DNA of 30,247 nucleotides from a virus. Below, piece by piece: positions 6,493 to 9,173 of the stretch. Position numbers and translations under genes: made by a program. Under the pieces are notes generated by a model. The model had not been told where the DNA came from. It did not search any database and was given only the letters and a program-made list of their open reading frames with translations. Location of the stretch: IMG/VR virus record IMGVR_UViG_3300030943_000128, positions 1 to 30,247 of that record; one strand, 5' to 3'. The first letter of the stretch is position 1. Each line of letters opens with the position of its first letter.

Positions 6493-6654
6493 ATGAACAC
6501 GAACGCACCAACAGATGATGACCTCTGCGCCAGCTACCTGCGCGAGTTCGAGGAAATGCAGCAAGCGGTCCGCGAGCATCCGGACAGGCATTACAATGTT
6601 CTTTCGATCAACAACGAACGCCAAGGAAAGGAGGCACATGATGCGAAGTCATAA
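6493..6654 (+). CDS. Small acidic hypothetical protein
   Basis: A 53-residue protein (MNTNAPTDDDLCASYLREF...) that is acidic at the N-terminus and helical in the middle (SYLREFEEMQQAVREH). There is no Shine-Dalgarno, and the promoter places the transcript start at the ATG. I do not recognise it. A longer reading from 6349 would overlap the previous gene in another frame and is unlikely. Confidence 0.52.
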   Translation: MNTNAPTDDDLCASYLREFEEMQQAVREHPDRHYNVLSINNERQGKEAHDAKS

Positions 6655-6697
6655 GTTCACCGCTCGCGCTCAATGCGCAAAATCGACCTTCGTCTGA
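6641..6697 (+). CDS. Putative 18-residue peptide behind a near-perfect ribosome-binding site
   Basis: AAAGGAGG (6627-6634) is the strongest Shine-Dalgarno in the early region. It stands 6 nt from ATG 6641, which opens a basic 18-residue frame (MRSHKFTARAQCAKSTFV). This overlaps the end of the 53-residue gene in another frame. A further frame, ATG 6673 to TAG 6774 (33 residues), overlaps it. Either may be a leader peptide or a decayed gene. Low confidence. Confidence 0.3.
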   Translation: MRSHKFTARAQCAKSTFV

Positions 6698-6868
6698 ACG
6701 ACCAGCGCCTGGCGGCCCTTACGCTCCCACAACGGGGCGGGCAAGGGCGCAACAAAGTGATTAACCAACCGTAGCACGCACGATAGATCGCAGCCAATGC
6801 GCTCAAAGCCGGTGAAAGTCCGGCACTAATTCGAAACCGTTTTTCAACGTGGTAACCGAGGAGTGAAT

Positions 6869-7675: not shown

Positions 7676-7924
7676 ATGAGCGAACAGAAGAAGGATGGCG
7701 GGCCGGCGTTTCCAGCGCATCCGCATCAAAAGGGAAGCGACTACGAAAAATATGCCGGCATATCACTGCGCGCCTACATAGCCACGGCGGCTTTGCAGGG
7801 GATACTAGCCCAAGGCGGACTGGGTAACTTGCAGGATGTAGCCGACAGAACTCGTGGTGGAGGCATTGAAGTTAGCGCCGCAATCGCATTCGCAGACAAA
7901 CTCATCGCGGAGCTGGCCAAATGA
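7676..7924 (+). CDS. Conserved hypothetical phage protein (DGGPAFP family)
   Basis: An 82-residue protein beginning MSEQKKDGGPAFPAHPHQ and containing GISLRAYIATAALQG, then an Ala-rich helix ending in AIAFADKLIAEL. This architecture (GGPAFP, then G-x-S/T-L-R-x-Y-x-A, then an A-D-x-x-I helix) is one I recall as common in proteobacterial phage genomes, always without known function. A GGAG site precedes ATG 7676. The stop overlaps the next start. Confidence 0.72.
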   Translation: MSEQKKDGGPAFPAHPHQKGSDYEKYAGISLRAYIATAALQGILAQGGLGNLQDVADRTRGGGIEVSAAIAFADKLIAELAK

Positions 7925-8091
7925 CTCCGGAACTTGAAGAGCTTGCAAGAAAAGCCGGATTCCCCGTGCAATCAAAAGCATGGTATTACTGGGATGCTTT
8001 AGAAAAGTTTGCCGCTCTTGTCCAGATGCAGGCATTTTCAGATATTCTGCGCGTAAAAGAGTTGAGTGCAAAGTACGGGGTGAAGCCTTGA
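7921..8091 (+). CDS. Small hypothetical protein ending at the ncRNA promoter
   Basis: A 56-residue protein (MTPELEELARKAGF..., AWYYWDALEKFAALVQMQ, ILRVKELSAKYGVKP), predicted helical. It starts in an ATGA overlap. Its last codons overlap the -35 box of the promoter at 8088, so the coding chain stops exactly where the noncoding transcription unit begins. Function unknown. Confidence 0.6.
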   Translation: MTPELEELARKAGFPVQSKAWYYWDALEKFAALVQMQAFSDILRVKELSAKYGVKP

Positions 8092-8116
8092 CTTCAGCGA
8101 CGATCCGCGCTAGAGT
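8088..8116 (+). promoter_or_regulatory. Sigma70-type promoter for the structured RNA
   Basis: TTGACT (8088-8093), a 17-bp spacer, TAGAGT (8111-8116). The predicted start is near 8120-8124, at the foot of the first hairpin. The following ~650 bases contain no plausible gene. Confidence 0.6.
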
Positions 8117-8529
8117 TTGGGCTTACCCGTAAGCCTGTGCAAATGTGTACCTCCGCAGGTCGGATGCGCGACAGTTCCGAAAAAAGTCGCAACAACTAAC
8201 CGTAGCAGATGGACGGCCGAAAGCTGGAAGCCAGCAAGTAGGCCGGTAGTTTCGTCAAGATGAAGGCGGATTGTGCGGCGGTCTCTCCTGAGGATTCCAG
8301 CCCCGGAACAGGATGTAGAACGAGGGGTCGATAGTCCGCCCCCATGTTGGTGCAGCGCCAAGAAGTAAGCGGCCTGGGGTCATTCCCCTCAGCGCGAAGC
8401 CCGGAGCGTACCGGGGGCCGCTTTCTTGTTGGTGATTGCGTATGCAAGAACGCTGCGCCCATGATTCAATGACGCGTAGGATGCCGGAGATCAGCGCCGG
8501 CCGCCAACAACTTTTGCGGTAGTAACAAT

Positions 8530-8601
8530 ATTGGCGTAGCTCAATGAGAGTGCCGGAAGGAACGCCGGACATGCAGGCATCAAATCCTGCCGCCAGTACC
8601 A
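8530..8601 (+). tRNA. tRNA-like element, probably non-decoding
   Basis: 72 nt with a full 7-bp acceptor stem (8530-8536 with 8591-8597, one G-U), then A and an encoded CCA (8598-8601). The D arm is short (GCTC with GAGT, 5-nt loop). The T stem is perfect (GCAGG with CCTGC) with an 8-nt loop containing ATCAAAT. The anticodon arm pairs only CCGG with CCGG around an 8-nt loop without the invariant U33. The stems are kept while all three loops are abnormal. It may be a decayed tRNA or a structural tRNA mimic inside the larger RNA. Confidence 0.5.
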
Positions 8602-8656
8602 AATTCGGCCCGCACAGCCGAATGCGCGGTTCTCCTCCCTTTCCGCGCGTAGTCCT

Positions 8657-8692
8657 AATCCCGGCCACCGCGTTGCGAGCCGGGATTTTTTT
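8657..8692 (+). terminator. Strong intrinsic terminator
   Basis: AATCCCGGC (8657-8665) pairs with GCCGGGATT (8679-8687), a 9-bp stem with a 13-nt loop, followed by a run of seven T (8686-8692). It ends the noncoding transcription unit just before the terminase promoter. Confidence 0.88.
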
Positions 8693-8701
8693 GCTCATAA
8701 C

Positions 8702-8771
8702 TGTCGAATTATCAACACTGTCATAATCTCAACACATGTCGAAAACTTGACACTGTTGAGAATCTGACATA
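8702..8771. repeat. Two imperfect 35-bp direct repeats over the terminase promoter
   Basis: TGTCGAA recurs at 8702 and 8737, and ACACTGT at 8715 and 8750, both with a spacing of 35 bp. An 8-bp inverted repeat (TCTCAACA 8727-8734, TGTTGAGA 8754-8761) overlaps them and flanks the -35 box. These are candidate binding sites for a late regulator. Confidence 0.5.
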
Positions 8772-8775
8772 TAAG
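8747..8775 (+). promoter_or_regulatory. Terminase/structural operon promoter
   Basis: TTGACA (8747-8752), a 17-bp spacer, TATAAG (8770-8775): the closest match to consensus in the window. ATG 8781 follows the -10 by five bases, so transcription should start on the first codon. Confidence 0.78.
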
Positions 8776-8780
8776 GGGGA

Positions 8781-9173
8781 ATGGCTAAGCCCGAAAACGA
8801 GCAAATGACGGCAAAGGAGCTAACCTCCTACAAAGGCTATACATTCCCCAAAGGAGCATGGCGCAATGCCTTGTTTCGCCAGTTTCAGCGGATTGACGAA
8901 GAGCAACCGCTGCCAGAGGGTGAAAAGCACCCCGAGCCGAAGCCAATCCTTGACCGGATCGCCTACAGGTTCTTAAAGCTTTGCATCAGTGCCGGTCATG
9001 ATGATCTAGGCTTCTTTAAAGAGCTTGCAGACCGCTTGGACGGCAAGGCACCGCAAGCCATTGCCCTGACCGATGACGAAGGCGCACCGGTCCGTTTGGA
9101 GCGTGTGGTTCGCCAGATTATCGACCCGCCCTCCCTGCCTGCGCCTATCCCGGACCACAAGACGTTGCAATGA
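8781..9173 (+). CDS. Terminase small subunit (probable)
   Basis: A 130-residue protein directly before the large terminase and overlapping it (ATGA). It contains FPKGAWRNALFRQFQRIDEE, a central helical segment (ILDRIAYRFLKLCI) and FKELADRLDGKAPQAI. I know this arrangement from proteins annotated as small terminase subunits or DNA-binding packaging proteins. It would recognise the pac site and present DNA to the large subunit. AAGGGGGA abuts ATG 8781 with no spacer, so initiation may be leaderless; ATG 8805 is an alternative start. Identity rests mostly on position. Confidence 0.72.
   Translation: MAKPENEQMTAKELTSYKGYTFPKGAWRNALFRQFQRIDEEQPLPEGEKHPEPKPILDRIAYRFLKLCISAGHDDLGFFKELADRLDGKAPQAIALTDDEGAPVRLERVVRQIIDPPSLPAPIPDHKTLQ

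Follow-up and report, generated by a model that had tools for sequence, protein, structure and literature searches.

A phage RNA family that is almost certainly real and missing from Rfam 15 has a member upstream of the terminase genes in the window, by which we mean the whole stretch of DNA analysed, an IMG/VR virus record of 30,247 bases. The record encodes a helicase/primase, a methyltransferase and a late module in which a small protein comes first, followed by the large terminase, portal and scaffold. The conserved part of the RNA is about 60 nt long, and its common layout, 5' to 3', is a helix of variable sequence (P0), AA (two or three bases), hairpin A, an arm (B) of 25–176 nt across relatives, AA or AU, hairpin C, and the second strand of P0, which in nearly all scan matches follows hairpin C directly with zero bases between. 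In the family, hairpin A is GCGCA GGCUGA UGCGC and hairpin C is GCCGG AGAUCAGC[AG] CCGGC. A first-pass annotation made from the letters alone had proposed a structured non-coding RNA gene at this place; the gene is borne out by its homologues, and most of the hand-paired helices on which the proposal was built are at chance level.

Among 86 loci fetched through their terminases (80 with a related large terminase and 6 with a related small one) just one match turned up, 23 nt long (GCCGGAGATCAGCGCCGGCC...), lying 5' of the terminase in locus L062, and the hairpin shared by the window and L062 also lies between tRNA genes of a Salmonella phage-plasmid. Scanning viral contigs with a 19-mer signature (one position free) gave at least 120 stretches, against roughly one that we estimate from the collection size to be expected by chance. 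An independent scan by hairpin A alone, in which hairpin C was therefore not imposed by the search, returned the identical layout with compensating stem changes in hairpin C, and when loci were fetched by hairpin C only, 96 of 100 had the whole domain according to a covariance model. This model (R1) covers P0 and hairpins A and C and was built without the window; the tool itself describes its E-values as rough. Among genome contigs, the lowest score of a true member is at least 37.9 bits, the exceptions being a contig-end fragment and one divergent arrangement, and chance matches to the signature alone reach at most 28.9 bits. A second shared hairpin (TGACAGCCGGGAAAGACCGGCA) was considered as a family element and set aside, being present in just 6 of 146 loci. 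The hairpin (T)GACAGCCGGGAAAGACCGGC lies within about 200 nt of the domain in L096, L200, L220, L241, L297 and L062.

Covariation among homologues had been put forward by the first-pass annotation as a check on the RNA, and it is strong. In a MAFFT alignment of 37 diverse members, 93.8% of the alignment cells at the 25 tested pairs are standard pairs and 17 of the 25 change on both sides (9.0 in shuffles); the covariation score is 0.403, compared with 0.116 for shuffled alignments (reached in 0 of 500) and at most 0.121 for slid ones. The inner seven P0 pairs of 210 members (1470 pairs) include 1411 Watson-Crick, 41 G-U and 6 A-C pairs, and the preponderance of G-U over A-C indicates that the structure forms as RNA on this strand. 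Folding of the whole domain averages z -2.08 relative to shuffles. In most members the loop of hairpin A (GCUGA) is a perfect complement of the loop of hairpin C (UCAGC), a count that is biased for loop A because this was partly a selection criterion. The two loops may pair with each other; they hardly vary, no compensatory pair was found between them, and the covariation statistic is no higher than in permutations.

Within the window the RNA is probably made from a late-leader promoter and ends at 8692, 5' of the terminase genes (Table 1). The first-pass annotation saw no plausible gene here, and the searches agree, neither strand of 8092–8780 encoding a protein of known family (four ORFs tested, no Pfam or PHROGs match). 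The terminator that it described is recovered by RNAfold as a 9-bp stem with a 13-base loop followed by seven T; a consensus terminator scan missed it, as that scan permits loops of at most 8. The promoter is present in motif and spacing, and one such site is what shuffled sequence yields. As evidence of structure the dozen helices fail, the 539-nt RNA without its terminator folding with z -1.6 when coding stretches of the window reach -3.1; with a promoter no rarer than in shuffles and an unexceptional folding energy, that evidence alone was insufficient, and it is the homologues, not the hand-drawn helices, that support a new class of structured phage RNA. The 9-bp helix held to be most telling (8349–8357 with 8451–8459) has one strand outside the domain and the other inside it and clashes with the homologue-supported fold; we reject it because in the family-consistent fold its inside bases pair within arm B (8453–8458 with 8474–8479). 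The abutting helix ending at 8423 is real and is the upstream helix P-1 (8367–8374 with 8416–8423), which stops 2 nt short of P0. The P0/A/B/C domain, a second partner of P0 and a CCA cloverleaf at 8530–8601 had all been overlooked.

Table 1. Parts of the leader RNA in the window
Feature	Position	Strand	Evidence
Sigma-70-like promoter TTGACT-17-TAGAGT, putative late-leader promoter	8088..8116	+	Position only; not above shuffles (mean 0.7)
Leader RNA 5' part, no conserved element recognised	8117..8355	+	Folding z -0.8 (8117–8425)
Anti-P0 CGCCAA, copy of P0 3' strand	8356..8361	+	Family-wide excess of such copies over permutation
Helix P-1, AAGCGGCC (8367–8374) / GGCCGCTT (8416–8423), with two inner hairpins	8367..8423	+	Folding
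Conserved RNA domain, whole covariance model match	8426..8510	+	45.7 bits, E 1.5e-9, window-free model
P0 5' strand TTGTTGGTG	8426..8434	+	Covariance model match, folding; P0 covaries strongly across the family
Hairpin A position, TTGC GTAT GCAA	8436..8447	+	Folding, family comparison
Variable arm B, hairpin CTGCGC (8453–8458) / GCGTAG (8474–8479)	8453..8479	+	Folding
Hairpin C, GCCGG AGATCAGCG CCGGC, conserved signature	8483..8501	+	Signature scans, covariance model match
P0 3' strand CGCCAACAA	8502..8510	+	Directly abuts hairpin C (8501), no unpaired base; covariance model, folding
Cloverleaf: 7-bp acceptor, U8-A9, discriminator A, encoded CCA	8530..8601	+	Relaxed cloverleaf scan
Two hairpins between cloverleaf and terminator	8603..8648	+	Folding
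Intrinsic-terminator-like hairpin AATCCCGGC...GCCGGGATT followed by T7	8656..8692	+	Folding; weak match to anti-hemB terminator half

The member of the family in the window is divergent. Its hairpin A has the loop GTAT in place of the GCUGA typical of relatives, and GCTGA does not occur in 8117–8692, though the loop of hairpin C is TCAGC. A window-type P0 was not found in other viral contigs, and among phages and plasmids DNA homology to the leader is limited to the hairpin. By cmscan, the whole window is without a match at threshold to any Rfam 15 family; a permissive Rfam search of 7900–8800 returned an anti-hemB terminator half as its best match, followed by weak matches such as rydB. The gene in the small-terminase position (8781–9173) is without a match in Pfam or PHROGs, and such relatives as it has in viral contigs are distant (36–53% identity over parts).

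The covariance model places the domain in P1 (twice), HK620, HK629, PAJU2, phiEt88, Klebsiella phage Magnus (Taipeivirus) and Acidovorax phage AP1, and it is also present in mEp460, IME207 and SSU5-like phage-plasmids; overall it occurs across hundreds of phages of Gamma- and Betaproteobacteria. BLAST searches with two domain queries touched 182 and 369 phage records; among complete E. coli genomes, 1187 of 5426, about a fifth, have a match to related sequences (840 for the P1-type RNA alone), with no annotated feature under the E. coli matches listed. Members in genome contigs belong to Gamma- and Betaproteobacteria, one Bradyrhizobium and a few metagenome bins. Random species samples searched with strict filters gave at least 7 of 398 Pseudomonadota, a lower bound, 0 of 149 Actinomycetota and, among Bacillota, the seed bin alone. 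The domain is always intergenic or beneath small hypothetical ORFs, in contexts that include Q-lysis late leaders, positions upstream of terminase genes, tRNA islands, immunity regions and the inside of a structural cluster adjoining an 'immunity to superinfection' gene, and no protein gene is common to all inspected contexts. Terminators lie within 300 nt downstream at 27% of domains, compared with 7–9% otherwise, with a peak at 28–32 nt. CRISPR spacers in type I-E-like arrays match hairpin C in L331 (3713–3732), L340 (1189–1208; this spacer also covers P0) and L408, which are genome contigs of Marinospirillum, Pseudomonas oligotrophica and Modicisalibacter, and these three spacers are independent evidence that hosts meet the element in invaders. 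A sizeable piece of phage biology thus appears to lack annotation, the family being present in P1, lambdoid phages, phage-plasmids and virulent phages with no annotation in the inspected records.

Two arrangements of multiple copies are worth recording. The P1 copies (L212 3007–3141 and 3436–3537; 65.6–66.2 kb of the record) sit beside tRNA-Asn and tRNA-Thr, are both unannotated, and have repeated unit boundaries (ACAACAGGTAAG). L162 (11255–11591, minus strand) contains two complete domains in direct tandem that differ from each other in P0 and in arm B.

Arm B is hypervariable and is exchanged. The 146 arms examined fall into 126 clusters, and arms are unrelated in 46 of 48 locus pairs whose upstream flanks are at least 80% identical and in 17 of 18 pairs with alike downstream flanks. 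Conversely, mEp460, a lambdoid phage, and IME207, a virulent siphophage, both have an arm identical to the 79-nt arm of P1 copy 1; their domains share about 97% identity with that of P1, and likeness among these phages ends at the domain edges. Strong covariation, transfer among unrelated phages and a hypervariable part together make an arms-race pattern, and the family may represent an RNA arm of phage-host or phage-phage conflict.

We consider it probable that this is a mobile accessory RNA acting in trans, with the variable part setting its specificity. The fuller explanation that we favour, if tentatively, is that this undescribed phage RNA family, with its member in the window, behaves as a self-contained, mobile trans-acting RNA 'moron' with exchangeable specificity. 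The frame (P0, A and C, with C stacked on P0) would keep the RNA compact and stable and display the variable part, pairing of loops A and C would probably aid the stability of the frame, and the variable part, exchanged as a cassette, would determine the target. An RNA-handling factor of the host or of a rival phage would be a more likely target than the phage's own packaging or late genes.

A base-pairing regulatory RNA, in which the arm is a seed for host or rival-phage mRNAs and the frame is merely protective, is an unlikely alternative with some points in its favour. The arms are weakly structured, as expected of a seed, being on average no more stable than shuffles (mean folding z -0.46), and there are prophage precedents: small RNAs with variable ends (PMC13192938), and an antisense RNA that excludes other phages (PMC7067206). 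However, no antisense target of the arms rises above shuffles in a small phage DNA set with copies of the element set aside, the strongest matches tracing to two false domain calls inside genes, and the seed is, in most families of such RNAs, a short conserved element, whereas here whole arms of 25–176 nt are replaced.

Upstream of the domain, helices of at least 10 bp ending within 8 nt of P0 are present in 39% of 185 unique upstream regions, compared with 7% of controls. The bases 5' of P-1 often duplicate the P0 3' strand, and the P0 5' strand has two options, pairing backwards to extend P-1 or forwards to close the domain. Extensions of P-1 by at least 7 pairs occur at 36 of 126 loci, compared with 12.5 when P0 is permuted among loci (maximum 22 in 300 permutations), and because the sequence of P0 varies, this three-strand match is itself a covariation signal. 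In the window, 8356–8374 can pair with 8416–8434 (the P-1 3' and P0 5' strands) at 17 of 19 positions. The RNA may therefore be bistable, either as a switch or as part of a folding pathway. The inner end of P-1 keeps AUUG/CAGU (with a U-G pair) while the rest varies at 28 of 185 loci and 5 of 552 controls, with examples in L164, L208 and L151. In L298 and L307 a TTGACA/TACATT promoter-like site is directly 5' of P0, as if the RNA began there without P-1.

Bistability, like a constitutive position in the leader, would be compatible with action in cis as well. The lambda pR' leader (6S) is a lambdoid late leader running from the late promoter to a terminator before the lysis genes, and the domain occupies the same place in HK620 and HK629; in the HK620 annotation it lies between the late promoter pR' and the terminator tQ, before the lysis genes, and in the window it lies between promoter and terminator. 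A cis-acting late-operon leader, timing terminator read-through before lysis or terminase genes by means of the two mutually exclusive partners of P0, is nonetheless improbable, as many copies are outside late leaders (P1, IME207, mEp460, CSP3 and Magnus) and the P0 3' strand has no alternative partner downstream, and so no link to the terminator. The lambda late leader is not itself a member: phage lambda has no match to the model, and elsewhere the domain sits at many places.

A link to tRNAs, which had been raised only by analogy with GOLLD, proved to be real, with enrichment both around and inside the domain. Same-strand tRNA genes start within 60 nt downstream at 12 of 210 members, compared with 0.12% of random positions, and within 600 nt at 24 of 210, and no opposite-strand downstream tRNA genes were found among the 210. 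At ten loci a same-strand tRNA begins 3–10 nt downstream of P0, and tRNA islands with the domain are present in P1, SSU5-like elements, ST4 and SOVA965. Outside called tRNAs, complete T-arms have a density of 0.26 per kb within arm B and 0.30 per kb over the 150 nt upstream, compared with 0.012 in control DNA, and are thus more than 20 times commoner, although only a minority of arms contain tRNA pieces. The window contains exactly one relaxed CCA cloverleaf (0.025 expected per strand), 20 nt past the domain; neither ARAGORN nor the Rfam tRNA model calls it, and with its degenerate D and T loops it could be a decayed tRNA or a tRNA mimic. L089 (2664–2795), a Salmonella SSU5-like phage-plasmid, has, between tRNA-Asn and the RNA domain, a tRNA-like gene whose D and T arms are intact and which has CCA but a long insert in the anticodon region.

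The close spacing at those ten loci and the several tRNA islands are what would be expected if the RNA were a phage tRNA helper, a processing or stability domain for adjoining tRNAs, but an immediate downstream tRNA is found in only 12 of 210 members, and one within 600 nt in 24, making this distinctly improbable. For a mobile RNA acting in trans, tRNA pieces recur in the variable parts, and on that ground the likeliest single type of target would be a host enzyme or defence directed at tRNAs, with the RNA as its lure or competitor. Even so, identifying the target as a host factor or defence that is tRNA-directed or otherwise handles RNA is doubtful when taken by itself; mimicry of anticodon arms was rejected as a general arm property, being barely enriched (10 observed and 4.7 expected), and this together with the small number of arms containing tRNA pieces weakens a general tRNA-lure model. 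It is possible, if again rather unlikely, that the family is a general RNA system of counter-defence or phage competition, with one bistable frame and swapped specificity cassettes, some of them derived from tRNAs; if so, it would be the RNA counterpart of exchangeable anti-defence proteins, matched to the enzymes of hosts or rivals.

The phi29 pRNA has a helical stem plus two hairpins with complementary loops, an arrangement that the present RNA resembles, and the domain adjoins the terminase in the window, L062 and Aeromonas phage 62AhydR11PP; a packaging role of this type, which the first-pass annotation had allowed for by analogy, is very unlikely, the RNA being in 1 of 80 loci with a 70–76% identical terminase (L062, when 68 of the 80 include at least 1.5 kb upstream) and, unlike pRNA, mobile, accessory and not bound to one packaging motor, occurring with unrelated packaging modules, far from terminases and often in two copies per genome.

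T4 RNAs C and D are comparable as stable RNAs of unknown role within a phage tRNA cluster; they have no match to the model even with filters off. A retron non-coding RNA was also rejected, no reverse transcriptase being present among the annotated neighbours at 16 phage loci. L092 carries an RT-15 RNA (RF03018, 143 bits) at 6593–6775 on the minus strand of the same viral contig as a domain, more than 5 kb from it.

Membership of GOLLD, ROOL or HEARO, also floated by the first-pass annotation, is contradicted by cmscan against all of Rfam 15, where none is found at gathering or even at E 10. GOLLD and ROOL (PMC12286853) are structured RNAs of phages and prophages with unknown function, often near tRNA islands, and have a conserved part, a variable linker able to hold tRNAs, kissing loops and homo-oligomeric cages. 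The present family is likewise phage-borne, near tRNAs and built of conserved and variable parts, with putative kissing loops; it differs in having no sequence or model match to them, in a conserved part of about 60 nt compared with several hundred, and in its occurrence in Gamma- and Betaproteobacteria and their phages. It is a small proteobacterial counterpart to the GOLLD/ROOL puzzle of why phages keep structured RNAs beside tRNAs, and its presence in P1, HK620 and HK629 makes it testable in laboratory E. coli. The Pas sRNAs and STnc100 (2026 preprint PMC13192938) are similarly encoded by prophages, in the neighbourhood of tRNAs, Q and lysis genes; the Rfam family of STnc100 was not matched here, and the Pas RNAs differ in having Hfq-type terminator ends and narrow hosts, largely pathogenic Escherichia and Shigella. 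These two articles are the nearest literature found, and neither describes a P0/A/B/C RNA in its accessible parts. No published description was found by a search whose reach stops short of subscription papers and most preprints, and the only publication containing the signature sequences was an unrelated whale study.

The E. coli RNA rydB (RF00118) has the hairpin C signature CCGGAGATAAGCGCCGG in common with the family, without hairpin A and without P0 in register. It was rejected as a chromosomal member, K-12 rydB scoring 13.8 bits with R1 through the hairpin only, and the window reaches 18.9 bits with the Rfam rydB model, for which gathering is 50. The K-12 rydB hairpin (L465 3214–3281, minus strand) is almost identical to hairpin C, and the two are possibly a common protein-binding motif.
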